The notes beneath the pieces were generated by a model. It was not told the DNA's origin. It did no database searches and worked only from the letters and a program-made list of their open reading frames with translations. A stretch of DNA of 64,000 bases. Origin: Streptomyces sp. 846.5 (GTDB lineage: Bacteria > Actinomycetota > Actinomycetes > Streptomycetales > Streptomycetaceae). Location of the stretch: NCBI RefSeq assembly GCF_004365705.1, contig NZ_SOBN01000001.1, forward strand, positions 496,001 to 560,000, given 5' to 3'. Both the position numbers and the translations under genes were made by a program. How positions within the stretch are numbered: the first letter of the stretch is position 1; every line of letters starts with the position of its first letter. Below are positions 4,518 through 53,069 of this stretch, in pieces.

Positions 4518-5843
4518 ATGTCAGAAATCCTGTCCAGAAGAGGATTCCTCGGTCTCGCCGCCGCGGGCGGCGTCGCCATGACGGCCTCCGCCTGCGGCTT
4601 CACGCCCACCACCAGCAGCAGTTCCGGAGCGTCCGGCAGCGCGGGCAAGACCCTGGTGTTCCGCTGGTGGGGCGGCGACTCCCGCAACCAGGCGTACCAG
4701 GCCGCACTGAAGATCTTCACCCAGAAGACAGGCATCGCGGTCACTGCCCAGTACTCCGGCTACGACGGCTACTTCAACAAGCTGAACACCGAGTTCGCCG
4801 GCGGCAACCCGCCCGACATCTTCCAGATGGACACCGCGCTGGTCAGCACCTACGCCGCCAAGGGCGTGCTGATCGACCTGGCCTCCTACATCCCGGGCAC
4901 GATCCAGCTGGACACCCTCTACTCCCCGCTGCGCACCGCCGGCACGGTCAAGGGCAAGAACTACGGCGTCGCATCCGGCTCCGGCTACGCCCCCGTTCTC
5001 TATGACAAGACCGTGCTGGACAAGCTCAAGATCGCCGCTCCCGGCGACAACTGGACCTGGGACGACTTCGCCACCATCACCGGCGAGATCTCCAAGGCGT
5101 GGGGCGCGAACAAGTACGGCGCGCTGGACGCCTCCAACGACGACTCCGGCGCCTTCCAACCGTGGCTGCGCCAGCGCGGCAAGGACCTCTACACCGCCGA
5201 CGGGGTCCTCGGTTTTGACTCCAGCGACCTGACCGAGTGGTTCACCTTCTGGGCCGGCTTGCGCAAGAGCGGCGCGATCTCCCCGGCGACCCTGCTCGCC
5301 AACGCCGGTGAGGCCAGCGGCACCCACCCGCTGATCGCCGGGCAGGTCGCCATGACCACCGGCTGGGGTCTGGCGCAGATGCAGCCGCTGACGCAGCACA
5401 CCCTCGACCTGGTGGTCGTCCCCCGCGGCAGCAACGGCAAGACCGGGCAGGCTCTCAACGGCGGCGTGCTGCTCTCTGTCCCCACCAAGAGCCAGAACCC
5501 AGCCGGTGCGGCCAAGCTGATCGACTTCTTCCTCAACGACGCCGACGCGATCAAGGCCATGGGCACGCAGCGCGGCTTCCCGCCGTCGGCGAAGGCCAAG
5601 GCCATCCTGCTGCCCACCCTGACCGCCTCGCAGAAGCGGGACGTCAACTACGGGGAGTACGTGGCCGCCCAGGCGACCAAGGACGGCCTGACCGCCGCCC
5701 CGACCGCGCCCCCCGGATACGGCGACGTCAAGACCGCGCTCGACGCGGCGGCCCAGGGCGTCGCCTTCGGAAAGCTCTCGATCAGCGCCGGCGTCACCCA
5801 GTTCTTCAGCGCCGCCAAGACGGCACTGGCCAACGCCAAGTAG
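4518..5843 (+). CDS. Extracellular sugar-binding lipoprotein of the ABC transporter
   Basis: The 441-aa solute-binding protein (family 1 type) carries a twin-arginine signal (SRRGFLG) and a lipobox ending at Cys26 (TASAC), so it should be exported by Tat and anchored as a lipoprotein. The mature part has the usual features: an early VFRWWGGDSRN strand-loop, a GNPPDIFQMD segment and aromatic residues for sugar stacking. It ends the operon with the two permeases and is followed by a strong hairpin. The ligand is not predictable from sequence alone. Confidence 0.9.
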   Translation: MSEILSRRGFLGLAAAGGVAMTASACGFTPTTSSSSGASGSAGKTLVFRWWGGDSRNQAYQAALKIFTQKTGIAVTAQYSGYDGYFNKLNTEFAGGNPPDIFQMDTALVSTYAAKGVLIDLASYIPGTIQLDTLYSPLRTAGTVKGKNYGVASGSGYAPVLYDKTVLDKLKIAAPGDNWTWDDFATITGEISKAWGANKYGALDASNDDSGAFQPWLRQRGKDLYTADGVLGFDSSDLTEWFTFWAGLRKSGAISPATLLANAGEASGTHPLIAGQVAMTTGWGLAQMQPLTQHTLDLVVVPRGSNGKTGQALNGGVLLSVPTKSQNPAGAAKLIDFFLNDADAIKAMGTQRGFPPSAKAKAILLPTLTASQKRDVNYGEYVAAQATKDGLTAAPTAPPGYGDVKTALDAAAQGVAFGKLSISAGVTQFFSAAKTALANAK

Positions 5844-5854
5844 CACGTTCCTGG

Positions 5855-5891
5855 ACCTGGGTGGTCATCGCCTGGCGCTGACCACCCAGGT
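5855..5891. terminator. Bidirectional hairpin terminator between convergent genes
   Basis: A 13-bp perfect inverted repeat (ACCTGGGTGGTCA / TGACCACCCAGGT) with an 11-nt loop sits between the sugar-binding protein gene and the leftward vWA gene. Its inner 26 bp closely match a hairpin at 18966-18991. Confidence 0.75.
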
Positions 5892-5898
5892 TCCTGGT

Positions 5899-7140
5899 CT
5901 ACCCGATGGCGACCACGCGGGCCCACTGCGGCGGCGAGTCCGGTACGTAGTCGGGATTGCTCTCGTCCCACGACCGGGGCGCCGACTGCCGGGCGAAGAG
6001 CCCGACCACCGTCCGGCACGGTGGTCGGCTGTCCGGCCAGGGTGTCTGACCATCCGTCAGGACGACGATGACATCCGGTCGGGGCTGCGCTCGCAGCACC
6101 TTGGCGAAGCCCGCGCGCAGATCTGTGCCTCCACCGCCGACCAGGGAGATGCCCTCGGCACGGCACAGCGGGACCACGGTGTGGGCTGCCGCTTCGCACG
6201 ACACCACGGTGACCTGGTCCCGACGGCCGCCCACCGCACGGGAGATCGCGGCGACCTCCAGCAGCGCGCTGCCCAGTTCGGCGTCGCTGACCGAGCCGGA
6301 GGTGTCGATGACCACGGCCACCCGGGGCGGTCTGCGCCGCAGACTCGGCAGCACCAAGCCGGGCACCCCGGCCGCGCGCCGCGACGGACGGCCGTAGGTG
6401 TAGTCGTCGGCTGCGCCGGGGCCGGAGACCGCCGACCGGACCGCCGCCCCCAGCAGGGCCCGCCACGGTTGCGCCGGGTGGAACACCTCCTCCGCCCACC
6501 GCTGCCACCCCTTCGGGACGCTTCCCGGACGGCCGCTGATGCCCTGCGCCACCCGGAACCGGACCGCGTCCCGCTCCTGCTCACTGAGTCCGTGCGCGCC
6601 GTCGGGCCCCAACTCCCACTCCCGGTCCAGTCCGTCGGCGCCGCTGCCGCAGTCCAGCCAGGCCATGTCCTGGGTATAGGGCCCGAGCCGGAACTGACGC
6701 AGGTAGTCCTCCATCAGCTCCCCCTCGGACAGTCCGAGGGACCTCGGCATGACCGCGCCCTTGGGCCGGACCAGCCCATCGCCGAACACGTCGTCGTTGA
6801 TCTCGCAGTCCGCGGCGATGTTCATCCGCAGTCGCTCCCCCGGGCTGGTCAGACCGTGCTCCCGGGCGAACCGGTCGCTGCGCCCGTGATGGTCGCGCAG
6901 CAGGTGCGACACCTCGTGCACCCATACCGCGGCCAGTTCCTCCACCGGCATGCGGGCCACGAACGCGGGCGAGGCGTAGCAGCGCCAGTGCCGGTCGACG
7001 CCCATGGTCGGTACCTTCCGCGATTCCACGATGTGCAGGGCGAACAGCGCGGTCGCCAGGTAGGGCCGGGCCCGGACCGCGTGCAGGCGGGCGGCGTAGA
7101 GCTTGTCGAGGTCCAGGGACACCGGTGCGTCGAGTGTCAT
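5899..7140 (-). CDS. DUF2201-type putative metallopeptidase/vWA-like protein
   Basis: The 413-aa protein has two parts. The N-terminal half contains VHEVSH, an HExxH-type zinc motif (His75 and His79) typical of the DUF2201 putative metallopeptidase domain. The C-terminal half is a von Willebrand A-like domain with a MIDAS-type DTSGS near residue 277 and a late LTDG. Its start overlaps the stop of the MoxR gene (ATGA), giving the classic MoxR-vWA pair. Such pairs act as cytosolic ATP-driven remodelling modules. Here they lie back to back with a trypsin-VMAP arm, so a part in a regulated proteolytic defence or stress response is inferred. Confidence 0.85.
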   Translation of the reverse strand: MTLDAPVSLDLDKLYAARLHAVRARPYLATALFALHIVESRKVPTMGVDRHWRCYASPAFVARMPVEELAAVWVHEVSHLLRDHHGRSDRFAREHGLTSPGERLRMNIAADCEINDDVFGDGLVRPKGAVMPRSLGLSEGELMEDYLRQFRLGPYTQDMAWLDCGSGADGLDREWELGPDGAHGLSEQERDAVRFRVAQGISGRPGSVPKGWQRWAEEVFHPAQPWRALLGAAVRSAVSGPGAADDYTYGRPSRRAAGVPGLVLPSLRRRPPRVAVVIDTSGSVSDAELGSALLEVAAISRAVGGRRDQVTVVSCEAAAHTVVPLCRAEGISLVGGGGTDLRAGFAKVLRAQPRPDVIVVLTDGQTPWPDSRPPCRTVVGLFARQSAPRSWDESNPDYVPDSPPQWARVVAIG

Positions 7141-34908: not shown

Positions 34909-36099
34909 TCAAGCAACTGCGGTGACTGGCGGTGCAACTTGGTAGCACCGTCGGTCACGGATCAGAGCCCAGAAGACGTTGACGCGTCGGCGGGCCAGGG
35001 CGATGACGGCCTGGGTATGGCGCTTGCCCTCTGCGCGCTTGCGGTCGTAGAAGCGGCGCGAGTTGGGGTCGCAGCGGATGCTGATGAGCGCGGAGGTGTA
35101 GAAGACGCGCTGCAGGCCGCGGTGGTACTGCTGAGGGCGGTGCAGGTTGCCGCTGGTCTTTCCGGAGTCGCGTGGTGCCGGTGCCAGGCCGGCGAACGCC
35201 GCGAGGCGGTCCGGGTTCGCGAAGGAGTCCATGTCACTGCCCACGGCGGCCAGAAACTCGGCTCCGAGAAGGGAACCGATGCCGGGCATGCTGGTGATCA
35301 CCTCGGCGAGCTCGTGCTGGCGAAACCGGCCCTCGATGAGCTTGTCGATCTCCGCGATCTTCCCGTTGAGAGCCACCACCTCCTCTGTGAGCGTGCGCAC
35401 CATCGCGGCGAGGGTCCCCTCGCCGGGAACCGCGGTGCGCTGGCGCTCAGCGGCCTCGACCGCGGCAGCGGCCAGGGCCTCGGCGCCGCGAACCTTGCGG
35501 GCACGCAACCACTTCGCGAGCCGGGCCGCCCCCAGGCGCCGGATCGCGTCCGGGGTCTGATATCCGCTCAGCAGCACCAGCGGCCCCGTGTTGGTCAGCT
35601 CCAGAGCGCGCTCCAAACCGGGGAACATGCTGGTCAGCATGCCCCGCAGGCGGTTGACCGCGCGAGTTCGGTCGCAGACCAGGTCGGTGCGCCGATTGGT
35701 GAACAGGCGCAGTTCGATGCTCGCCTCGTCGCTGGGGCGCATCGGCTTCAGGTCCCGGCGGATGCGGGCCTGGTCCGCGATGACCAGCGCGTCGCGGGCA
35801 TCGGTTTTGCCTTCGCCGCGGTAGCCGTCAGTGGCCCGGTTGACCGCCCGCCCGGGGATGTAGAGCAGCTCCTGTTCGTGGTTGACCAGCAGAGCGATCA
35901 GCAGGGCGGCCCCGCCGTCGGCCATGTCCACCGCCCAGGTGACCTGGTCTGCCAGGGCGAGGACGTCGGCGAGGAGTTGGAGGAGCTCCGGTTCGTCGTT
36001 GGCCACCCGTCGGGACAGCAGCTTGGCGCCGTCGGTGTCCAGCACCACGCAGTGGTGGTGGGTCTTGCCGCTGTCGATCCCGGCCCATATTCGGCTCAT
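34909..36099 (-). CDS. IS110-family transposase (element 2)
   Basis: The 396-aa protein has Asp9 (GIDSGK), an Asp58 in VDMADGG where many relatives have Glu, Asp100/Asp103 (KTDARDA), and a C-terminal MPGIGSLLGAEFLAAVG with the GKTSGNLHRPQQYHRGLQRVFY serine-containing region. It starts at ATG after GGGAGCACG. It is only distantly similar to its neighbour, so the pair did not arise by simple duplication. The frame is uninterrupted, so it may be active. Confidence 0.92.
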   Translation of the reverse strand: MSRIWAGIDSGKTHHHCVVLDTDGAKLLSRRVANDEPELLQLLADVLALADQVTWAVDMADGGAALLIALLVNHEQELLYIPGRAVNRATDGYRGEGKTDARDALVIADQARIRRDLKPMRPSDEASIELRLFTNRRTDLVCDRTRAVNRLRGMLTSMFPGLERALELTNTGPLVLLSGYQTPDAIRRLGAARLAKWLRARKVRGAEALAAAAVEAAERQRTAVPGEGTLAAMVRTLTEEVVALNGKIAEIDKLIEGRFRQHELAEVITSMPGIGSLLGAEFLAAVGSDMDSFANPDRLAAFAGLAPAPRDSGKTSGNLHRPQQYHRGLQRVFYTSALISIRCDPNSRRFYDRKRAEGKRHTQAVIALARRRVNVFWALIRDRRCYQVAPPVTAVA

Positions 36100-36457
36100 C
36101 GTGCTCCCAAGAGTCGTTCCTGCAGTGCGTACCACGGACGACCTCGCCGGCATTGCCTTACGCAGCGACTTGTTCGCACTTCCCAATCAGCGGCCCGGTC
36201 GTCGTGGGGTGCCGGGCGGCGAAGCGAAGTCAGCCATGGACGGCAGCCGCCTGAAAGCCACACCCGGCACCCCTGGGCGACCCAACCCTACGAATGGCTC
36301 GATCAACCCGTCCAACAACGTAAGGCCGCCTGACAACGCCCACAGTGCACCATTTGCGCAGGCCGGCCGCCACCGGTTCCCGAAGCATGTCAACAAGGCA
36401 CCGCCGCACCTTCCGTCTGCCGGGCTGACCGTGATTTTCGCGTCAGTGGTGTGAAGG
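36100..36457. other. Non-coding leader of the second IS110-family transposase gene; possible bridge-RNA region
   Basis: The roughly 358 bp between the transposase start and the broken SDR gene hold no gene that I can support. Read leftward, it is the upstream non-coding part of element 2 and so the expected place for its bridge RNA. The part next to the SDR gene (36350-36457) may already be host DNA. Confidence 0.4.
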
Positions 36458-38604: not shown

Positions 38605-39348
38605 TCAGGAAGGGTGCGGGAGACGGTAGACCGAGACGTGGGACCGCGACTCGCCGGTGAACTCGGCCCCGTCCCAGTTCGCCTGCCTGGACTCCAGCTC
38701 GAATCCGGCCAGTTGGGCCATGAGGTCGAGCTCGGCCGGCCAGATGTAGCGGTGCTTGCTGCGGTGCAGCCGGGCCTGCCGGCCGTCGTCGAACGTGAAG
38801 TGGTGCGACACCAGGTGCTGCCGCAGGATGTCGTAGGTGTCCAGGCCGATGTAGCCGGCCTGGACGTCGAAGAGCGCCCCCTGCTGGCCCGGCGGCAGCA
38901 CACGCAGGTCGGGTACGCCGAGCTCGATCACGAATCGGCCGCCCGGCGTCAGATGGCAGGCGGCATTGCGGAAGCAGGCGACCTGCTCGGCCTGGGTGAG
39001 CAGGTTGGAGATGGTGTTGTAGACCAGGTAGACCAGCGTGTACTCCCCCGGAGCGACGGCGGTCGCCATGTCACCGACGACCACCGGGATCGTCGCCTCG
39101 TCCGCCTTGGTCCGAAGTCGCTCGATCATCGGCAGCGACAGTTCGATGCCGGTCACCGGCACGCCGCGCTCGGTCAGGGGGACGGCCACCCGCCCGGTTC
39201 CGACGGCGAACTCCAGCGCGCGCCCGCCGTCCGCGAGGTCGGCGAGGAAGGCCACGGTCGGCGCCAGCAGCTCGGGCGCGAACATGCCGCTGCCCGGTGT
39301 GTCATAGCGCTGGGCAGTGTCGACGTCCCAGGTCTGCTCCTGTTCCAT
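38605..39348 (-). CDS. Class I SAM-dependent methyltransferase
   Basis: The 247-aa protein has the SAM-binding motif I ALEFAVGTGRVAVPL, motif II TGIELSLPMIERL, the acidic VVVGDMAT loop and motif IV YTLVYLVYNTISNLLTQ, as in the class I Rossmann methyltransferases. The start at MEQEQTW follows GGTGGAGGC. The substrate is unknown. The spacing to the hypothetical gene downstream suggests one transcription unit. Confidence 0.85.
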   Translation of the reverse strand: MEQEQTWDVDTAQRYDTPGSGMFAPELLAPTVAFLADLADGGRALEFAVGTGRVAVPLTERGVPVTGIELSLPMIERLRTKADEATIPVVVGDMATAVAPGEYTLVYLVYNTISNLLTQAEQVACFRNAACHLTPGGRFVIELGVPDLRVLPPGQQGALFDVQAGYIGLDTYDILRQHLVSHHFTFDDGRQARLHRSKHRYIWPAELDLMAQLAGFELESRQANWDGAEFTGESRSHVSVYRLPHPS

Positions 39349-39388
39349 GCCTCCACCATCGGCACCAACAGGCGCACTGTCCAACGAA

Positions 39389-40921
39389 TTACGCCACCGG
39401 CTCAGCTGCCCCGAGGTCCTCGGCCCCGGCCAGCTCGATGGCCCGTTGGGCCAGCCACTGGTCGTGGACAGCGCTGGGAGACCGTAGCAGTGAGCGTTCG
39501 AGCAGTGCCTCACTGCGGGTCAGACGCTTGCGTACGGCGGAGACCGAGACGGACAGCGCAGCCGCGGTGGGGCCGATGCGCGCGTCGAGGCGCAGCCAGG
39601 TGGTGAGTGTCTCGGCGATGCTGGCCGGAACGTCGGGGGCGCTCACGGGACGGAGCTGTCGGTGGGCCCAGGCCACGACGCTTGGCAGCACAAGGAGTTC
39701 GTCCAGGCTGGGCGCCGTCCTCCCGGCCCCGATGGCGTCGTGCTCCGGCGCGGGCGGGATATCTGTGGCGATCGCGCGCAGAGCGAGTGCCAGTGCGGCT
39801 TGGTCGGCGAGCCGCCGCAGGTCCAGGCCCAGCAGCTCCTGAATGCAGGTCAGGCGTCCGCTCAGGGTGTTGCGGTGGATCTTCAGGTGGGCCGTCGCGT
39901 GGGAGTGGAAGCTGAGCCATGAAGCGGCGGTGGCCAGGAGTTCCGTACTGTCCGGGTCCTGCGGGCGTCTGGCCCGGTGGGCGCGGATCGGTGCGAGGAA
40001 GGCCTCGGCCCAGGCGACTGCGGCGGAGCCGATGGTCAGGGCCAGGTCGGGGTCGGCTGCGAACGAGGACTGTCGGTCGCAGCGATCGCGCGCGGCGGCG
40101 AGGGCGTGGAACGCCTGGGCGTAGCCGGTGGCGGTGTCGCGCAGCGGCAGGGCGTTGCTGACCCCGATCCAGCAGGTGGCCTCCAGCTCGGGGGGCCAGA
40201 CCCAGCTTGGGGCACCGTCGGCGGGCGCGAGCATGAGGATGTGGTCGGCGTACACCGGACACGGCACGATCCATGCGCCCTCGGCCACCTGGGCCAGCTC
40301 CTCGGCCATCCGGGCGCGCACCCTGGGCGGTCCCTCGATGACGTAGATGCGCACCGTCGCGGGCAGAGCCGGTCGCAGCGCCCCCGCGACCTGGCGCGCA
40401 ATGGATGTCTGACCGTTCATCAGCAGATGCAGGACTGCTTCGCGATTCTGGGCGTCCGCGATCCGCAGCCGACGCTGCTGCCGCCGGGCGTGTTCCGCCG
40501 GCCAGGTCAGACTCAGCACGGAGGTGGCGTCCGCGAGCAGGACCGGAAGCTCTGGCGCTGCCGGTCGGGACGTCACGGCGACGAGAAAGGGCGACCGGCC
40601 GCCCCGCGACCTGTCGAGAGGAAGGACGATGCAGGTGAGCCCGCCCTGGTCGATGACCACGGACCCGCGCCCACGCACAGCCATCTCCCGCACTGCGCAC
40701 AGAGCCAGACCGTGCTCGGCCTCACCGAGGGGGGCCTGCGGCGGGTGGCTCAGCGCGCCCGCGGAGTCCATCAGGAGGACGTCGGCCCCGGTGCGGGCCG
40801 CCAGCCAGCTGAGCACCAGTGCGGTGCCGCCGCCGCGGGCAGCGCGCTGCATGTCCAGCACATCGTCGGCCCGCCGGATCCGTCCGACGGTCGCCGTGTC
40901 CGCCGGCCGACCACCCTGCAC
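39389..40921 (-). CDS. PucR/CdaR-family transcriptional regulator
   Basis: The 510-aa protein has a GAF-like or PucR-type sensor region in the first 150 residues, a GGDEF-like CdaR middle part (about 180-310, with AFHALAAARDRC) and two C-terminal helix-turn-helix stretches. One is the typical HTH_30 (LKIHRNTLSGRLTCIQELLGLDLRRLADQAALALALRA) near 345-385 and the other lies near 445-475 (GPTAAALSVSVSAVRKRLTRSEALLE). Family members activate catabolic or secondary pathways. The start is a GTG. It stands alone, so its target is not evident. Confidence 0.82.
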   Translation of the reverse strand: MQGGRPADTATVGRIRRADDVLDMQRAARGGGTALVLSWLAARTGADVLLMDSAGALSHPPQAPLGEAEHGLALCAVREMAVRGRGSVVIDQGGLTCIVLPLDRSRGGRSPFLVAVTSRPAAPELPVLLADATSVLSLTWPAEHARRQQRRLRIADAQNREAVLHLLMNGQTSIARQVAGALRPALPATVRIYVIEGPPRVRARMAEELAQVAEGAWIVPCPVYADHILMLAPADGAPSWVWPPELEATCWIGVSNALPLRDTATGYAQAFHALAAARDRCDRQSSFAADPDLALTIGSAAVAWAEAFLAPIRAHRARRPQDPDSTELLATAASWLSFHSHATAHLKIHRNTLSGRLTCIQELLGLDLRRLADQAALALALRAIATDIPPAPEHDAIGAGRTAPSLDELLVLPSVVAWAHRQLRPVSAPDVPASIAETLTTWLRLDARIGPTAAALSVSVSAVRKRLTRSEALLERSLLRSPSAVHDQWLAQRAIELAGAEDLGAAEPVA

Positions 40922-41144: not shown

Positions 41145-43019
41145 TTACACGCCGCCGCACAGGTAGAGCTTGCCCAGGCCCTTCGCCTGGCCCTGCACCG
41201 GTGCGCAGTTGGTCCGTACCCAGGCGCTGATCTCCACGGCCGCGCTGTTCCCGGTGTGGACCTTGGCCGGTACGAGCGCGTAGTGCACCTCGCCTGCGGT
41301 CACGTACCGCTGGAACTGGGCGATCGTGGTGGAGGGCACCAACCCCGAGTAGCCGCCGAGAGGCAGGACTGAGGCGTCCTCGGCCAGGATGTACGGGGTG
41401 GCGGCGCTCCAGGACCAGGTCGCCATGAGGTACTTCGCCCCCTGGCGGTGTGCCGTCAGGTAGGCGTAGAGACTGCGTTGCTCCTTGTCGAGCTTTCCCG
41501 ACACGCCGCTGACGCTGTTGCCGTTGCGCAGTGCGGCGGCGCCGACGGTGCCCAGCCAGGAGTGCCCGTAGCGGGTCTGGAAGACCGAGGCGGACCAGGC
41601 GGCGGGCGTCACCAGCATGGCGGCCAGCCCCAGCGCGGCTCCCGCCGTCACCAGACGTCCGTTCCTGCCGAGCCGCAGCAGCGCGATCGCGGCACCGGCG
41701 AGGACCATCGCGGTCGGCGCCGCCCAGACGAGGTAGAGCGGGTAGCGCATGGACTGGACCAGCGCCCACACCGCCGTGACGCCGATCGCCGCGGGAAGCG
41801 CCCAGGCGTGTCGACCGCCCGCGCGGAAGGCCCGCCAGAACGCCGCGAGGCCGGCGCCGGTCAGCGCGGCGAGGGGCGGGGCCAGTACGCCGAGGTAGTA
41901 GGTGTGACCGTTGACGCTTCCCACGCTGAGCACCAGGGTGAACACGGCCAGCCAGCCGCCCCAGACCAGATAGCCGGACCGGCCCCGGTCGGTGCGGGGC
42001 CGGCCGCGCCGCCACAGCAGTCCGCAGCAGAGCGACAGCAGGGCGACCGGGTAGAGCCAGGCGATCTGGGTCCCGAACTCGCCCCAGAAGAGTCGGAACA
42101 GCCCGCCGTCGGAGCCGGCCGAGCCCGACTGCGCGGCCACGGCGCCGGTCTGCGCGGCGCTCACACCGATCCCTTGGAAGCGGGTCAGGAAGTTGTATCC
42201 GAAGACCATGCTGAAGACGGAGTTGTTGGTGGTGCCGTCGATATAGGGCCGGTCCGCGGCGGGGGTGAGCGCGACCACCGTGCAGTAGGACAGCGAGACC
42301 GTCAGCGCCACCGCGGCTGCCGTCCCCGCGCGTACCAGTCGGGTGCGCAGCGCCACCGGGGCCGCGTACAGGTACACCAGGCCCAGCACCGGCAGTACCG
42401 CCCACGCCTCGACCATCTTCGCCTGGAAGGCCAGCCCCACCCAGGCCGCCGCTGCCAGCAGATGCCGCAGCCGTCCGTCCATAGCCGCCCGCGCGGTGGC
42501 GTCGGCGGCGAGCAGAAGCAGCAGGGTGAACAGCGCGTCCTCGGTGACCGTGCGGAACAGTCCGGCGACGATCGGCGTGAACGCGAACGCGGCGGCGGCC
42601 AGCAACGCGGCGTTCGCCCCGGTCCAGCGGCGCACCGCTCGGTGGAGCACCAGGATGCTCAGCACACCTTCGATCGCCTGCGGCAGCAGCAGCGTCCAGG
42701 TGTGGAAGCCCAGCAGCCGGGCGGCGAGGGCCTGCGGCCACAGGTAACCGGGGAGCTTGTCCAGGGTGATCGAGGCGGCCGGGTCGAAGGAGCCGTAGAA
42801 GAACGCCTTCCAGCTTCCCGACATGCTGCGCACCGCGTCGGCGTAGAAGGCGTGGTAACGAGCGTGTTCCCAGTCCCAGCAGAACGCGACGGCGGCGACT
42901 GCCGCGATGAGCAGCAGAGCCGGTCGGGCGTGGCGGGGCCGGGCGGGGCCGCGGGTCGCCAGGGAGGGCTCCCTCCCAGGGGCGGTCGGGGTGGTGAGAG
43001 TGGGGGCCATGCTCGGCAT
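41145..43019 (-). CDS. Polytopic GT39-type glycosyltransferase (YkcB/ArnT-like mannosyltransferase)
   Basis: The 624-aa protein has about 12 hydrophobic segments after a Pro/Arg N-terminus and an extracytoplasmic acidic position (YHAFYADAVRSMSGSWKAFFYG), then the KLPGYLWPQALAARLLGFHTW stretch typical of the YkcB-type family, and a soluble C-terminal part of about 150 residues. Such enzymes transfer sugars from polyprenyl carriers to wall or membrane acceptors. Two ATGs three codons apart could start it. It stands alone and ends at a strong hairpin. Confidence 0.85.
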   Translation of the reverse strand: MPSMAPTLTTPTAPGREPSLATRGPARPRHARPALLLIAAVAAVAFCWDWEHARYHAFYADAVRSMSGSWKAFFYGSFDPAASITLDKLPGYLWPQALAARLLGFHTWTLLLPQAIEGVLSILVLHRAVRRWTGANAALLAAAAFAFTPIVAGLFRTVTEDALFTLLLLLAADATARAAMDGRLRHLLAAAAWVGLAFQAKMVEAWAVLPVLGLVYLYAAPVALRTRLVRAGTAAAVALTVSLSYCTVVALTPAADRPYIDGTTNNSVFSMVFGYNFLTRFQGIGVSAAQTGAVAAQSGSAGSDGGLFRLFWGEFGTQIAWLYPVALLSLCCGLLWRRGRPRTDRGRSGYLVWGGWLAVFTLVLSVGSVNGHTYYLGVLAPPLAALTGAGLAAFWRAFRAGGRHAWALPAAIGVTAVWALVQSMRYPLYLVWAAPTAMVLAGAAIALLRLGRNGRLVTAGAALGLAAMLVTPAAWSASVFQTRYGHSWLGTVGAAALRNGNSVSGVSGKLDKEQRSLYAYLTAHRQGAKYLMATWSWSAATPYILAEDASVLPLGGYSGLVPSTTIAQFQRYVTAGEVHYALVPAKVHTGNSAAVEISAWVRTNCAPVQGQAKGLGKLYLCGGV

Positions 43020-43277
43020 GGTGTGTCACGGAGCTGTGCGGGAAGGTGAGCGGGTCGCGGCAGGTGTGAGCGGGTTCTCATGTCCAGGCGATCAGCCGAC
43101 CGGACCCCGACCACCACGAGGAGCGCGCATGCAGGCACGCCCCTGTCCTTCCGTCCTGTGCTTTTCCTGGCTCCTTGCCTGAAAAAGAACAGGTGGGGCC
43201 GGTAGTCGTGAAATCTGATTCAAAGGGTAAGAAGCTCTCTTCCTCGGCGCGGAAATCGGGTGGCACACTCACGCGCC

Positions 43278-44600
43278 ATGACCGCGATTCCACCGAGCAC
43301 CCTTACCCGTTCCCTACCCCCGAAACCGGCGCCCCGGACGGCCGGCCGGTTCGCGGGGCAGGAGCGGTGGCTGACCCTGGGCGCCGCGGTGTTCGCGCTG
43401 GTCTCGGCCCTGGCTGTGCTGGCCCAGTGGCGGATTCACGGTTACCCCTTGGTGGACATGGTGGTGTACCGGGCGGAGGGCCGCAGCGTCCTCGACCACA
43501 CCAGCCTGTACGGCATGCGCGTCGCGCCGTGGCACTTGGCCGCGACCTACCCTCCGTTCGCGGCGCTTCTCTTCGTCCCGGCGGCCTGGCTGCCGGTCTC
43601 GGTCATGCGCTGGATCGTCATGGGCGAGAACCTCACACTGGTGGGCGTACTCGCCTGGCTCTCCTGCCGCCTGGCCGCCTGGCCGCGCCCGGGTCTGCGG
43701 CCGGCGGTGGCCCTGGTCGCCGCCGGAGCCGGCCTGTGGCTGGAGCCGATCTGGACCACGTTGAAGTACGGCCAGATCAACCTGCTGCTGGTGGTCCTGG
43801 TGCTGTGGGACCTGCTGCGCCCGGACGACCGGCGCAGCAAGGGTGTCGCGATCGGCATCGCAATCGGAATCAAACTCACCCCGGGAGTCTTCGCGGTCTA
43901 TCTCCTGCTGACCCGCCGCATCCGGGCCGGCCTCGTCGCGCTGGCCACCTCGCTTGTCACCGTCCTGCTCGGCTGTGCGGCGCTGCCCCGTGCCTCGTTC
44001 GACTTCTGGACGAAGGACCTCTACGACACCAGTCGCGTGGGCAGGACCTGGATCGTCGACAACCAGTCCCTGAGCGGCCTGCTGGCGCGGCTCCTGCACA
44101 CCCCGCAACCGGGCCTGCCTGCGACGATCGCCGCTGTGGTGGTCGGCCTGACCGGCCTCGCCGTGGCAGCTTTCACGGCTCGAAGGGCAGCGGGCCCGCA
44201 GCGTGCCGGGGCCTGGGGCATCGTCCTCTGTGCGGTCACCGGGCTTCTCGCCTCGCCGATCAGTTGGACCCACCACTGGGTCTGGTGCCTGCCGCTGCTG
44301 GTGCTGTTGTCCGCGGAAGCCGCGCGCGAGGCGCGGACCGCCAGAGGCTGGCGCCACCTGGGATGGCGCATCACAGCCGTCGCCGTCTGGATCGCGTTCG
44401 CATCCAAGGCCATGTGGCGGGTCAACGGCAGGCACACGGCCGACCTGCACCTGCCGTACTGGAAGATGCTGTGCGCGGACATCTACCCGCTGCTGGGACT
44501 GGCGCTGCTGGCCGTCGCCGCCGCACGCCTGCTGGTGCTGCCGGTGGGTCCGGGTCGGGTGCGGCAGGAGTCGATCAGTTCTGGCAGCTCGCCGAACTGA
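43278..44600 (+). CDS. GT87/DUF2029-family polyprenyl-dependent mannosyltransferase-like protein
   Basis: The 440-aa integral membrane protein has about 10 helices and family motifs: DMVVYRAEGRSVLDHTSLYG (the acidic catalytic site), the ATYPPFAALLFVP block, GQINLLLVVLVLWDLLR and KLTPGVFAVYLLLTRR. GT87 enzymes add alpha-1,2-mannose to lipid-linked glycans such as PIMs. The ATG giving MTAIPPST is used; a GTG six codons upstream is possible. Its last 118 bp overlap the convergent TetR gene in antisense, which is unusual. Confidence 0.85.
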   Translation: MTAIPPSTLTRSLPPKPAPRTAGRFAGQERWLTLGAAVFALVSALAVLAQWRIHGYPLVDMVVYRAEGRSVLDHTSLYGMRVAPWHLAATYPPFAALLFVPAAWLPVSVMRWIVMGENLTLVGVLAWLSCRLAAWPRPGLRPAVALVAAGAGLWLEPIWTTLKYGQINLLLVVLVLWDLLRPDDRRSKGVAIGIAIGIKLTPGVFAVYLLLTRRIRAGLVALATSLVTVLLGCAALPRASFDFWTKDLYDTSRVGRTWIVDNQSLSGLLARLLHTPQPGLPATIAAVVVGLTGLAVAAFTARRAAGPQRAGAWGIVLCAVTGLLASPISWTHHWVWCLPLLVLLSAEAAREARTARGWRHLGWRITAVAVWIAFASKAMWRVNGRHTADLHLPYWKMLCADIYPLLGLALLAVAAARLLVLPVGPGRVRQESISSGSSPN

Positions 44601-45178
44601 TACTGCGTCAGTCCTGGCAGAAGCAGCAGCCAGAGTGCATCCAGGCGTTGTTCGACGAGCTTGCGCCGGTCCATAGCGTCGGAGACCGAGTGGACGCCGA
44701 ACAGGGCGCAGACCACCGTTTCGGCCGCCTGCGCCAGGTCGAGGCCGGTGCGCAGCGATCCCTCGGTCTCGGCCTGCCCCAGCAGGTCGGTCACGACGTT
44801 GATCCAGCCGACGAACGGTTTCGGCAGCCCGGCGTCGATGGACTGGCGTTCGCTCCACAGCCGGCCCCCGGCCCGCACGATCACGTCGTCGCGGAAGGCG
44901 CGCACCACCGCGTAGCTGAGCGTCAGCAGCCGCTGCAGCGCCGGCACCGGCAGTTCCTGCGCCCAGTCCACCATGGGCTCCCAGGCGGCGAAGTGCGCCT
45001 CGACGACGGCGGCGGCCAGTTCGTCCTTGCTGGCGAAGTGGAAGTACAGCGCCCCGCTGGTGCACTGCGCCTGACGGGCGATCGCGTTGACACTGGTGAC
45101 GGCATAGCCCTTGGCATCGAACAGCTCCGCTGCCGAGCGCAGGATCAACTCCCGGGTGCTCTGCGCACGTTCCTGCAC
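44483..45178 (-). CDS. ArpA/ScbR-type gamma-butyrolactone receptor-like TetR regulator
   Basis: The 231-aa protein has the N-terminal TetR helix-turn-helix (AIARQAQCTSGALYFHFASKDELAAAV) and the ligand domain pattern of butyrolactone receptors (FRDDVIVRAGGRLWSERQSIDAGLPKPFVGWINVVTDLLGQAETEG). The GTG start has AAGGAG upstream. It is divergent from an AfsA-type gene, the usual pairing of receptor and autoregulator synthase. The last 40 residues (after LLPGLTQYQF) have no family counterpart and are antisense to the GT87 gene, suggesting that the original stop was lost. Confidence 0.85.
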   Translation of the reverse strand: MQERAQSTRELILRSAAELFDAKGYAVTSVNAIARQAQCTSGALYFHFASKDELAAAVVEAHFAAWEPMVDWAQELPVPALQRLLTLSYAVVRAFRDDVIVRAGGRLWSERQSIDAGLPKPFVGWINVVTDLLGQAETEGSLRTGLDLAQAAETVVCALFGVHSVSDAMDRRKLVEQRLDALWLLLLPGLTQYQFGELPELIDSCRTRPGPTGSTSRRAAATASSASPSSG

Positions 45179-45203
45179 TCGCGCTCCTTGTCTGGGCCGT
45201 GCG

Positions 45204-45249
45204 GTGCGCGGAAGCCCGAGAACTCCACGATAGCGTGCGCGGAAACCCG
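45204..45249. repeat. 15-bp direct repeat, 31-bp period, in the receptor/AfsA intergenic region
   Basis: GTGCGCGGAAGCCCG (45204-45218) and GTGCGCGGAAACCCG (45235-45249) differ at one base and lie about three helical turns apart between the divergent regulator and AfsA-type genes. They may be paired regulator binding sites. They do not look like the usual palindromic autoregulatory element of butyrolactone receptors. Confidence 0.5.
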
Positions 45250-45301
45250 GATGGAGCAGGTCGACGAGCCGTACCGGTGCCGGGTTCCTACAGTGTCGGG
45301 C

Positions 45302-46279
45302 ATGGGAGCCAGTGAACCCGGCCAGCCTTCCGGCCCGGCAGGCCCGCATGTCACGTCGGGGGTGCCGGTGACCCGGCAGCAGGTCCACCGCGCGGCCGAC
45401 GCGGAGGTCCTGATCACCGCCCGGGCGCGGGCCGGTCCGCACCGTTTTCGCTGCGCGGCCCGCTGGCCCAGCGGCCACCGCACCGCGGTCGGGGGCCGGC
45501 ACAGCCCACTGCTGGTGGCCGAGTCGATCCGGCAGGCCTGCCTCTGCCTGGCCCAGGGCTACTTCGACGTCCCCGGCGACACCCAGTTCGTCATCAAGTC
45601 CCTGGCCTTCTCCATCGATCCGGGCCAGGAGCCGGCCGCCCGCGGCGCGGCCACCGATCTGGTGATGGACGTGGACGTCGGCGACCTGCGCCTCGACCCG
45701 GCCACCGGGCAACTGGTCGCCCTGACCATGCGGGCCGCCTACCGCACCGCGGACGACGCCGACGTCTTCGCCACCGCCGCCGGTACCGCGCGGCTGTTCA
45801 CCCCCGAGCAGTACACCGCCGTACGCGCCGCGCCCGCGCTCGTCCGGCCCCTGCCACCCGCCGACGGCCCGCTGCGGCGCCCCGCCCCGGACCAGGTCGC
45901 CGTGGCGCGCACCGCCGACTTCGTCATCGCCGAGGACGCCGACGGACGCTGGTTCATCGCGCCGGCCGATCCGCAGCACCCCTTCTTCTTCGACCACCCC
46001 GCCGACCACCTGCCCGGCATGCTGCTGCTGGAAGCCGCGCGCCAGCACGCCCTGCTCCAGTGGCAGCCCGCATCGAAGCACACGGCAAGCGAGCCGATCT
46101 CTGGCTCGACGCCTCCTACATCACCATCGCCTACCACCGGATCGGCCGGGCCGACAGCAGGCACCACCGCATCCCCCTCGCCCACGTCACCGGGATCCGC
46201 TGGTGCCCGGCCAGCGCCCTGGTCCCCGGCTTCATTCAGTTCACCGTGGCCGGCGTCGGCGCCGACAATACGTCCGTGA
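45302..46279 (+). pseudogene. AfsA-family gamma-butyrolactone biosynthesis gene, 3' end replaced
   Basis: Residues 1-255 follow the AfsA hot-dog repeat pattern: VTRQQVHRAADAEVLITARA, HSPLLVAESIRQACLCLAQGYF, and, in the second repeat, DHPADHLPGMLLLEAARQHALLQW. AfsA makes the butyrolactone skeleton from glycerol-derived and beta-keto substrates. After that point, near 46066, the match stops and the frame runs into low-complexity Ser/Thr/Pro sequence that is the out-of-frame reading of a DUF4429 remnant. The final 60-80 residues of a normal second domain are missing, so the enzyme is probably inactive. Confidence 0.75.
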
Positions 46280-46368
46280 CCTTCAGCCGTGCCCAGCAAC
46301 CCGAGTTCGCCGCCCTCAAGGCCGCCGTCGAACGGGCCATCCCCACCCACCACAGCAACGCCGCATAG
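46072..46368 (+). pseudogene. C-terminal DUF4429 (PH-like) remnant
   Basis: About 98 codons read IEAHGKRADLWLDASYITI through RIPLAHVTGIRWCPASALVPGF to FAALKAAVERAI, the second half of DUF4429 bacterial PH-like proteins. The first half is absent; sequence upstream belongs to the AfsA-type gene in another frame. A GTG at 46060 could start a short product, but the simplest reading is a deletion that joined the start of one gene to the end of another. Confidence 0.65.
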
Positions 46369-46425
46369 CGGCCCGCCCCCGCGCGTCTCCCCTTCGGCTG
46401 CCCGGATCCTCGCCATCATCGACCT

Positions 46426-47148
46426 GTGACCACCTTCGACTTCCTGATCCGGCTGGCTACCGGGGCGGGTTGCGGTGCCGTGATCGGGGTCGAACGCCAG
46501 TGGCGGGCCCGGATGGCGGGCCTGCGCACCAATGCCCTGGTCGCCACCGGGGCCACCCTGTTCGTGCTCTACGGGGACAGCACCGGAAGCCTGGACAACG
46601 CCACCCGCATCGCCGCCTATGTCGTCTCCGGCATCGGCTTCCTGGGCGGTGGCGTGATCCTCCGCGACGGCGCCTCCGTACGCGGACTGAACACCGCGGC
46701 CACACTCTGGTGCTCCGCCGCGACCGGTGTCATGGCCGCCGGCGGCCACCTGGTCCTCGCCTGGATCGGCGCCGCCACCGTGCTCACCATCCACCTGGTG
46801 CTGCGCCCGGCCGGACGGCTGATCGACCGCGTCCCGCAGGACGACCCCGACACCGAGGGCACCGAGGCCACCGTCCACCTGGTCTGCGAGCGCCGGGCCG
46901 AGACACACGTCCGCGCCCTGCTCCTGCAGGCCCTCGCCGGCAGCGGCCTGACCTCCACCGGGCTGCGGGCCACCCGCGAGGGCGAGGACACCACCAGCCT
47001 GCGCGCGACCGTCGACGTCAGCGGGGACCCGGCCCGCGCCCTGGAACAGCTCATCGCCCGCCTGTCCCTGGAGCCCGGCATCCGCGACCTGCACTGGCAC
47101 CTGGACGACGGCGACGACTCCACCCGCGGACGCGCCGCACTCGCCTGA
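46426..47148 (+). CDS. MgtC/SapB-family membrane protein
   Basis: The 240-aa protein starts at GTG and has four hydrophobic helices with the family signatures GCGAVIGVERQWR, GLRTNALVATGATLFVL, YVVSGIGFLGGGVILRDG and VRGLNTAATLWCSAATG, then a soluble ACT-like C-terminal domain (about 150-235). MgtC-type proteins affect magnesium homeostasis and the membrane ATP synthase in pathogens; in soil actinomycetes their role is not defined. It stands alone. Confidence 0.9.
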   Translation: MTTFDFLIRLATGAGCGAVIGVERQWRARMAGLRTNALVATGATLFVLYGDSTGSLDNATRIAAYVVSGIGFLGGGVILRDGASVRGLNTAATLWCSAATGVMAAGGHLVLAWIGAATVLTIHLVLRPAGRLIDRVPQDDPDTEGTEATVHLVCERRAETHVRALLLQALAGSGLTSTGLRATREGEDTTSLRATVDVSGDPARALEQLIARLSLEPGIRDLHWHLDDGDDSTRGRAALA

Positions 47149-51679: not shown

Positions 51680-53035
51680 TCAATGGGGGCTTGGCCGTCC
51701 GGACCGGAGGAAGGTGGCCAGCGAGTCGTCGAGCTCGGTCCACCACGGGGTGTGGTGCAGCGGGGCGACGGTGCCGGTGCAGGGGGAAGCGAAGGCACGG
51801 TCACGGTAGCCGGTGATGCTCTCCTCCTTGTGGTGCTCCCAGGTTGCGAAGTGCTGACGGGCGAGTTCGAGGTCGAAGGAGGGGTAGTCGGTGGCCGCCA
51901 TCAGGTCGCGCAGGTAGTCGGTCTGGAAGTCGATGTCGTCCATGGGACCGTGGAGCATGTCCTGGCGGTCACGCCAGTGCGCGATGTCCGCCTGCATCGC
52001 GTCCGCCGAGGGCAGCGGGATGCGTCCGAGCACCACGTCGCGCACATAGAAGGCCTGGGCGTCGAACATGGTGAAGGTGTAGTACTGGTCCTGCATGGCC
52101 AGGTACATCAGCCTCGGGTTGGGTGTCCAGACCACGCCCTTGTAGAGGTCGGCCGGGTAGAGCATATTGCCGGTGCTCAGCCGCAGTTCCTCGTCCACGA
52201 AGGGGAAGTGGTGCCGGTAACCGGTGCACAGCACGATCGCGTCGACGTCGCGGGCGGTGCCGTCGGTGAAGTGCGCGGTGCGGCCCTCGACCCGGTCCAG
52301 GGCGGGGACCTCGCTGATCCCGTCCGGCCAGCCGAAGCCCATGGGCTGGTTGCGGTAGGAGATGGTGATCGACCTGGCGCCGTACTTGAGGGTCTGCAGG
52401 GCGATGTCCTCGGCGGAGTAGCTGCTGCCCAGGATGAGCAGGTCCTTGTCGGCGAACTCCGTGGCGTCCCGGAAGTCGTGCGAGTGCAGCACCCGCCCGG
52501 GGAAGGTGTCGAAGCCCGGGTACTCCGGCATGTTGGGGATCGAGAAGTGGCCGGTGCCGATGATGACCCGGTCGAACTCCTCGGTGCGCGCGGAACGGTC
52601 GCCGTACGACTCGACGGTGACCTGGAAGGTATCGCTGGCGGCGTCGAAGGAGATCCGGCGGACCGCCGTGTCGAACTGGATGTACTGGCGGACGTTGCTC
52701 TTCTTGGCCCGGCCGGTGATGTAGTCGTACAGGACCTCGCGCGGCGGAAAGGACGGGATCGGTCCGCCGAAGTGCTCGTCGAAGGTGTAGTCGGAGAACT
52801 CCAGGCACTCCTTGGGCCCGTTGGACCACAGGTAGCGGTACATGCTGCCGTGGACGGGGTCGCCGTGCTCGTCGAGTCCGGTGCGCCAGGTGTAGTTCCA
52901 CAGACCGCCCCAGTCGCTCTGCTTCTCGAAGCAGACGATCTCGGGGACGTCGGCACCGCTCCGGCGGGCCTCCTCGAAGGCGTGCAGTTGGGCGAGGCCG
53001 CTGGGGCCGGCACCGATGACGGCAATGCGGGACAT
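51680..53035 (-). CDS. tmm: Trimethylamine monooxygenase (flavin-containing monooxygenase)
   Basis: The 451-aa protein follows bacterial Tmm closely along its length: FAD site VIGAGPSG (7-13), QSDWGGLWNYTWRTGLDEHG, MYRYLWSNGPKECLEF, an FMO-type FPGRVLHSHDF, NADPH site LGSSYSAED near 210, DLYKGVVW and MFDAQAFYVRDVVLGR. It should oxidise trimethylamine to TMAO with NADPH and oxygen in the cytosol. The ATG follows AGGAGGATCACC. It is last in an eight-gene operon that also encodes TMAO demethylase and dimethylamine monooxygenase, which supports the substrate. Confidence 0.92.
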   Translation of the reverse strand: MSRIAVIGAGPSGLAQLHAFEEARRSGADVPEIVCFEKQSDWGGLWNYTWRTGLDEHGDPVHGSMYRYLWSNGPKECLEFSDYTFDEHFGGPIPSFPPREVLYDYITGRAKKSNVRQYIQFDTAVRRISFDAASDTFQVTVESYGDRSARTEEFDRVIIGTGHFSIPNMPEYPGFDTFPGRVLHSHDFRDATEFADKDLLILGSSYSAEDIALQTLKYGARSITISYRNQPMGFGWPDGISEVPALDRVEGRTAHFTDGTARDVDAIVLCTGYRHHFPFVDEELRLSTGNMLYPADLYKGVVWTPNPRLMYLAMQDQYYTFTMFDAQAFYVRDVVLGRIPLPSADAMQADIAHWRDRQDMLHGPMDDIDFQTDYLRDLMAATDYPSFDLELARQHFATWEHHKEESITGYRDRAFASPCTGTVAPLHHTPWWTELDDSLATFLRSGRPSPH

Positions 53036-53069
53036 GGTGATCCTCCTGGGAACGGGCATGCGGGGCTAG

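Follow-up and report, generated by a model that had tools for sequence, protein, structure and literature searches.

A truncated afsA gene joined out of frame to a DUF4429-like domain beside an autoregulator receptor gene in Streptomyces sp. 846.5

Introduction

In Streptomyces albus J1074, a butyrolactone receptor-like gene has been reported for which the synthesis genes were not identified (PMC3937824). A study of Streptomyces ambofaciens reports that DNA became integrated where breaks had been healed by end joining (PMC5869714). Here, we analysed a locus that touches on both subjects. It lies in a stretch of 64,000 nucleotides of Streptomyces sp. 846.5 (hereafter the window, whose coordinates are used throughout), where an afsA gene breaks off next to a divergent receptor gene and runs into unrelated DNA. 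No such locus is described in the titles or abstract beginnings of the literature matches listed.

Results

The sequence around the break is made up of the following features.

45302-46057, + strand: AfsA-homologous part, with the first hot-dog repeat plus the opening of the second (Pfam, NF041195, alignments)
46046-46075, no strand: afsA/DUF4429 junction (ends of protein similarity; codon-signature switch at 46058-46109)
46058-46279, + strand: out-of-frame tail of the afsA reading frame, unalignable to other AfsA proteins (codon signature, alignment)
46060-46368, + strand: DUF4429-like single bacterial PH domain as predicted, GTG start, 102 aa, without a Shine-Dalgarno or SHOCT-like tail (similarity, motifs, predicted structure)

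AfsA/ScbA similarity runs in frame 2 from 45302 and ends at about 46051-46060, and DUF4429-like similarity follows in another frame from about 46063. Alignments of the AfsA part with 14 other listed loci, drawn from 394 family genomes, end at query residues 250-253, equivalent to 46051-46060 (six candidates per genome were scored in this search, so that it gives minimum counts). When the full 325 aa of the ORF were searched against 14 genus genomes, the 20 other matches ended at residues 249-258. On the far side of the break, similarity begins at residues 2-6 of ORF 46060-46368 in 14 of 22 other matches and at residues 9-34 in the other eight. Codon usage changes as well: third-position GC lies between 0.85 and 0.97 in frame 2 as far as 46081, then between 0.88 and 0.97 in frame 1 from 46082 to 46381. 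A model with a single codon-signature switch, placed best at 46100 with a 95% set of 46058-46109, outperforms the two one-frame models by 65 and 81 log units. The junction is real, and its coordinates in the preliminary description are correct. That description had placed the end of AfsA similarity at about 46066, inside the second hot-dog repeat, and the onset of DUF4429 similarity within a few bases in another frame; both placements were borne out, the end falling at position 238 of 290 in the NF041195 profile.

We next consider what is left of the synthase. ORF 45302-46279 (+) opens with ATG and matches Pfam AfsA in two stretches (100.8 bits, cut-off 24). Against the ScbA/BarX model NF041195 it scores 189.9 bits, under the cut-off of 200, over profile positions 2-238. 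The first hot-dog repeat is represented by positions 2-119 of 133 and the second by only 27-59 of 133. When 33 other AfsA ORFs, including two from the same genome, were aligned with it, the query followed them as far as residue ~250 and diverged from every one of them beyond that point. By comparison with the 14 nearest relatives, the lost C-terminal part amounts to 58-75 residues (about 60, the last fifth), which in the hot-dog fold are the last strands of the second repeat. Among the 59 positions invariant in these relatives (a count made with 14 of the 33 aligned ORFs), 47 are kept and 12 differ. The kept positions include all 15 invariant residues from P221 to Q248, and the helix motif residues E74, R77, Q78 and E244, R247, Q248 are kept too, which we take to match published catalytic residues of ScbA; four positions of the first helix that never vary among the 14 relatives (T75, L76, G80 and I81) are changed. 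Since the AfsA part is stop-free, retains its high GC at codon position 3 and keeps the complete P221-Q248 set, it is without visible decay, a point that speaks against a scar. Its branch is 1.16 long against 0.66 for the receptor, and this ratio of 1.75 is not far above those at two relatives' loci (1.49 at L060 and 1.23 at L062). Comparison of the AfsA part with solved structures yielded no convincing match (best E 0.66). Because the end of the second hot-dog repeat is gone and an out-of-frame tail follows, the truncated protein most likely makes no butyrolactone and is probably non-functional as an enzyme.

A further AfsA-domain protein was noted outside this family. In a contig titled as Primorskyibacter aestuariivivens, an alphaproteobacterium, the protein at 5767-6795 of locus L072 (NZ_JAQIOZ010000012.1; 68.4 bits, locus GC 59.5%) has the second-repeat motif standing first, as if its halves were swapped.

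The missing AfsA C-terminus was sought in the window with a broader C-terminal profile in any frame, and the best of 1209 segments reached only E = 0.12. This profile recovered 33 of 33 proteins at E <= 4.3e-5 when each was left out in turn; it also detected the five control loci, although each of them is among the sequences it was built from. A first C-terminal profile had recovered L053 alone, one of its own rows, and missed the AfsA genes of L001, L002, L012 and L018, while leave-one-out runs of the narrow profile gave 14 of 14 at E <= 2.8e-20. In the whole genome, the narrower profile gave no C-terminal match up to E = 10 among the 150 of 188 candidates scored, but since the same search missed the C-termini of both full-length AfsA genes of this genome, a diverged detached piece could escape it. 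A PF03756 search of the genome found no detached AfsA piece over the cut-off; a weak match lies at C1:3005325 (10.5 bits). The C-terminus is thus absent from the window, and there is no sign of relocation within the genome, where the evidence is thinner. Because the window does not contain it and two genome searches found no detached piece, loss fits better than interruption.

A junction seen in one genome only might reflect a sequencing or assembly error, the true sequence being an intact afsA or two separate genes. A single-base error is ruled out because the AfsA C-terminus is in no frame of the window. The assembly has 5 contigs, with completeness 100 and contamination 0.08, although a chimeric join is conceivable even so; we consider an error of either kind very unlikely.

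The DUF4429-like ORF was then characterized. It scores 23.0 bits against Pfam DUF4429 (PF14472), under the cut-off of 25, over profile positions 23-94 of 95, and the DUF4429 family model finds nothing in the genome at E <= 0.01. The ORF is assigned to this family because of its matches to relatives (best in another genome, E 3.2e-13) and to one annotated DUF4429 plasmid protein (31.7% identity); 21 of the 394 family genomes, its own included, match at E <= 1e-4. In the predicted structure of the 102 aa, strands extend from residue 5 and the final helix runs to residue 93 (mean pLDDT 74.6). The closest solved structure is the bacterial PH domain 3hsa (E 3.6e-3, TMq 0.66; another 3hsa chain, TMq 0.71), and the fold is only suggestive because none of 573 structural matches reached E <= 0.001. 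The model thus suggests a complete domain with a bacterial PH fold. The earlier term "DUF4429 remnant", in the sense of a broken domain, does not hold: relatives start at about the same place, and a full PH fold is predicted, although the ribosome-binding site and the SHOCT-like tail are missing. The alignment revealed this tail, which we take to be SHOCT-like, in many relatives and its absence from the window's ORF.

Whether the domain is translated is a separate matter. Shine-Dalgarno pairing at its start is +1.2 kcal/mol; of the 16 of 22 relatives that were scored, 11 have values of -6.2 to -11.8 and the other 5 of -3.0 to -4.0, against a local background median of -2.7. Between the preceding stop and the GTG start, the frame contains no ATG, GTG or TTG. 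At four relatives' loci (L032, L035, L041 and L042), M-I-E-A-K-G is encoded from an ATG at the place of R-I-E-A-H-G in the window. The missing Shine-Dalgarno alone proves little, because the five weakest relatives are near the background median and two nearby genes are weak too (GT87, -3.9; the gene starting at 43019, -3.7). Nevertheless, judged from its sequence context, the domain is probably poorly translated or untranslated.

Both frames are open and keep the codon signature and conserved motifs, and the PH domain is predicted to be complete, as would be expected of a functional new gene in which a -1 shift at the junction yields an AfsA-PH fusion or a coupled DUF4429 start yields a selected overlapping pair. 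However, no slippery sequence is apparent by eye, the DUF4429 start has no Shine-Dalgarno, no fetched locus of other genomes carries such a fusion, and the second hot-dog repeat is incomplete under either variant. We regard this explanation as highly improbable. It would be a very long shot to suppose that the truncated AfsA and the PH domain form one unit, by frameshift or coupled start, that has lost signal synthesis and still binds an acyl substrate or the receptor, a synthase turned regulator.

The relatives' loci were compared for traces of the ancestral arrangement. An ScbR-like receptor is divergent to a C-terminally complete AfsA at 14 of the 14 nearest loci (L009, L010, L053-L055 and L057-L065, leaving out L056, a duplicate of L009, and L052, the window itself), and this layout is kept in the window; the nearest AfsA relative is 49% identical. 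The comparison with relatives advised in the preliminary description therefore found the truncation at none of these loci and a full-length AfsA at each. A scan of genome contigs with the AfsA part gave one distant match. In the flanks of 22 DUF4429-like loci from other genomes (about 1.5 kb, less at contig ends), no AfsA similarity was found, and afsA stands side by side with a DUF4429-like gene at no fetched locus of other genomes. The proposal that the two were "fused by deletion" is thus upheld in so far as a truncated afsA abuts DUF4429-like sequence out of frame, but a simple deletion between neighbouring genes is not, as the pair was not seen side by side. Deletion and insertion are never seen directly because no close relative has the ancestral arrangement.

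On the other side of afsA, the features are as follows.

43260-44600, + strand: GT87-family glycosyltransferase gene, 3' end overlapping the receptor gene tail-to-tail (Pfam GT87, 168.4 bits)
44483-45178, - strand: ScbR/ArpA-type autoregulator receptor of the TetR family (231 aa), with a complete conserved core and a C-terminal tail that differs from those of relatives (NF041196, alignment, Shine-Dalgarno pairing)
44537-44586, no strand: possible second sharp junction, GT87 to receptor (single-switch codon-signature model)
45179-45301, no strand: intergenic region between the divergent receptor and afsA genes, no clear common operator (comparison of query and relatives)

The receptor, described earlier as intact, indeed has an ScbR-family core, scoring 200.6 bits against NF041196 (cut-off 150) over model positions 1-190 of 191, and its Shine-Dalgarno pairing energy is -9.9; it is probably functional. 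After residue ~199, its tail is antisense of the GT87 gene and unlike aligned relatives. In the receptor-afsA promoter region, no palindrome is apparent as common to the query and 14 relatives, and promoter and terminator scans found nothing. The 3' ends of the GT87 and receptor genes share 118 bp (44483-44600). The best matches of GT87 relatives, which are at most 55% identical, stop at residue ~425 of 446. A codon-signature switch is placed best at 44570 (95% set 44537-44586; gains of 27.8 and 13.8 log units), weaker than that at the afsA junction, and convergent overlaps can be native.

Downstream of the DUF4429-like ORF, a further edge was observed.

46369-46429, no strand: probable third junction, 5' edge of mgtC (start of blastn similarity, Shine-Dalgarno comparison)
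46426-47148, + strand: MgtC family gene with 68-79% identity to the relatives' genes (Pfam, blastn)

The similarity of relatives' mgtC genes to the window starts at 46427 in blastn at 9 of 9 loci from 8 genomes. At 7 of the 9 loci, those with a start found by pattern, the relatives' genes begin three codons upstream, behind a strong Shine-Dalgarno (-9.0 to -15.8), and in the window (46426-46440) these first codons and the ribosome-binding site are missing, with a Shine-Dalgarno of 0.1. Judged from ORFs, the relatives' mgtC genes lie in other neighbourhoods. A direct before/after comparison failed because the GT87 relatives are so diverged and mgtC is elsewhere in relatives. Up to three joins would thus lie in 1.9 kb, secure at afsA, probable at mgtC and possible at GT87, and we read 44.5-46.4 kb as a likely patchwork from illegitimate recombination.

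In one special case of such recombination, whose odds therefore overlap with those of the general reading, a mobile segment bearing DUF4429 would have entered afsA, and the displaced 3' end would have been lost later. DUF4429-like genes do occur in one phage (two records) and at 10 loci of viral contigs; a PHROGs comparison gave no family for the window's ORF. However, no AfsA 3' end is left in the window, the gap from the DUF4429 stop to mgtC is just 57 bp, and a repeat scan of 44400-46500 yielded no flanking duplication distinguishable from chance among the 25 of 59 inverted pairs listed. Such an insertion therefore seems unlikely.

Elsewhere in the window, we noted an IS110 family transposase gene about 9 kb from the locus (34912-36186; 228.5 bits, cut-off 140), a methyltransferase weakly similar to daptide-type RiPP methyltransferases (38608-39519; 74.9 bits, cut-off 175) and a strong trimethylamine monooxygenase match (51683-53065; 815.5 bits, cut-off 675).

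A check for other afsA copies had also been proposed, and the family search revealed two further two-repeat afsA genes in the same genome, C1:613907-614776 and C2:715878-716744. Both proteins cover the whole ScbA/BarX model above its cut-off (332.9 and 203.6 bits, the latter barely). Receptor-like genes adjoin the C1 gene (C1:612372-612941 and C1:613135-613623). Because of these two full-length genes, the earlier suggestion that the strain responds to butyrolactones without making them is unsupported for the strain, and the locus looks like an ordinary genetic scar rather than a new system. An intact receptor next to a truncated synthase, together with the S. albus J1074 precedent of a receptor-like gene without identified synthesis genes (PMC3937824), would suit such a strain, but with two other full-length afsA genes the idea could hold only for this receptor's particular ligand. 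It is compatible with a recombination scar, with which its odds overlap, and we consider it distinctly unlikely. For this receptor, an orphan state is conceivable, as is a supply of ligand from the genome's two other AfsA enzymes or from neighbours.

Discussion

Taken together, we propose, with a probability of about 0.8, that the locus is an illegitimate-recombination scar in a mosaic stretch, in which a truncated afsA is joined to the start of a DUF4429/PH gene beside a probably functional receptor. In an ancestral ScbR/ScbA-type pair, with divergent receptor and afsA, the final ~60 codons of afsA would have disappeared, and the broken end would have been joined to DNA beginning near the first codons of a DUF4429/PH-domain gene. 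Further joins would have arisen just before mgtC, probably, and between GT87 and the receptor, possibly. By analogy, end joining in which DNA becomes integrated where the break is repaired would yield such abrupt joins. We infer both recombination by end joining and the receptor's present ligand; telling apart a deletion between two genes, an insertion with subsequent loss and a series of joins would take a close relative.

This is an ordinary truncated gene in a mosaic region, and the surviving receptor is of modest interest. If the proposed history is true, the locus adds a natural case in which a receptor has outlived the synthase paired with it at the same place, and is a small sample of how a chromosome is patched from gene pieces. 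It also cautions against taking a receptor plus a partial AfsA match here as evidence of a working butyrolactone system. With two more afsA genes in the genome, one can ask whether a receptor that has lost its partner becomes retuned to the signal of a sibling.

Several known systems resemble parts of this locus. Like the S. ambofaciens end-joining scars (PMC5869714), it contains abrupt joins of unrelated DNA, which were induced and sequenced there, whereas the history is inferred here. With the DUF4429(-SHOCT) proteins of Actinobacteria and phages (PF14472) it shares what is predicted to be the whole PH-like domain, the GFIQF motif and the C-terminal helix, but the window ORF is without a SHOCT-like tail or ribosome-binding site and stays below the family cut-off. 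The receptor agrees with the ScbR/ArpA family (NF041196) in exceeding the model cut-off and in its divergent position, and differs in the C-terminal tail that runs into GT87 antisense. As in the ScbA/BarX/AfsA synthases (NF041195, PF03756), the truncated gene is divergent to an ScbR-type receptor and encodes the first hot-dog repeat and the HPxxFDHxxDHxxGMxLLEAxRQ stretch opening the second; unlike them, its product is without the last ~60 residues and scores below the model cut-off. Finally, S. albus J1074 (PMC3937824) likewise has a butyrolactone-type receptor without a working adjoining synthase gene, whereas here the truncated synthase gene is still in place and the genome holds two other afsA genes.
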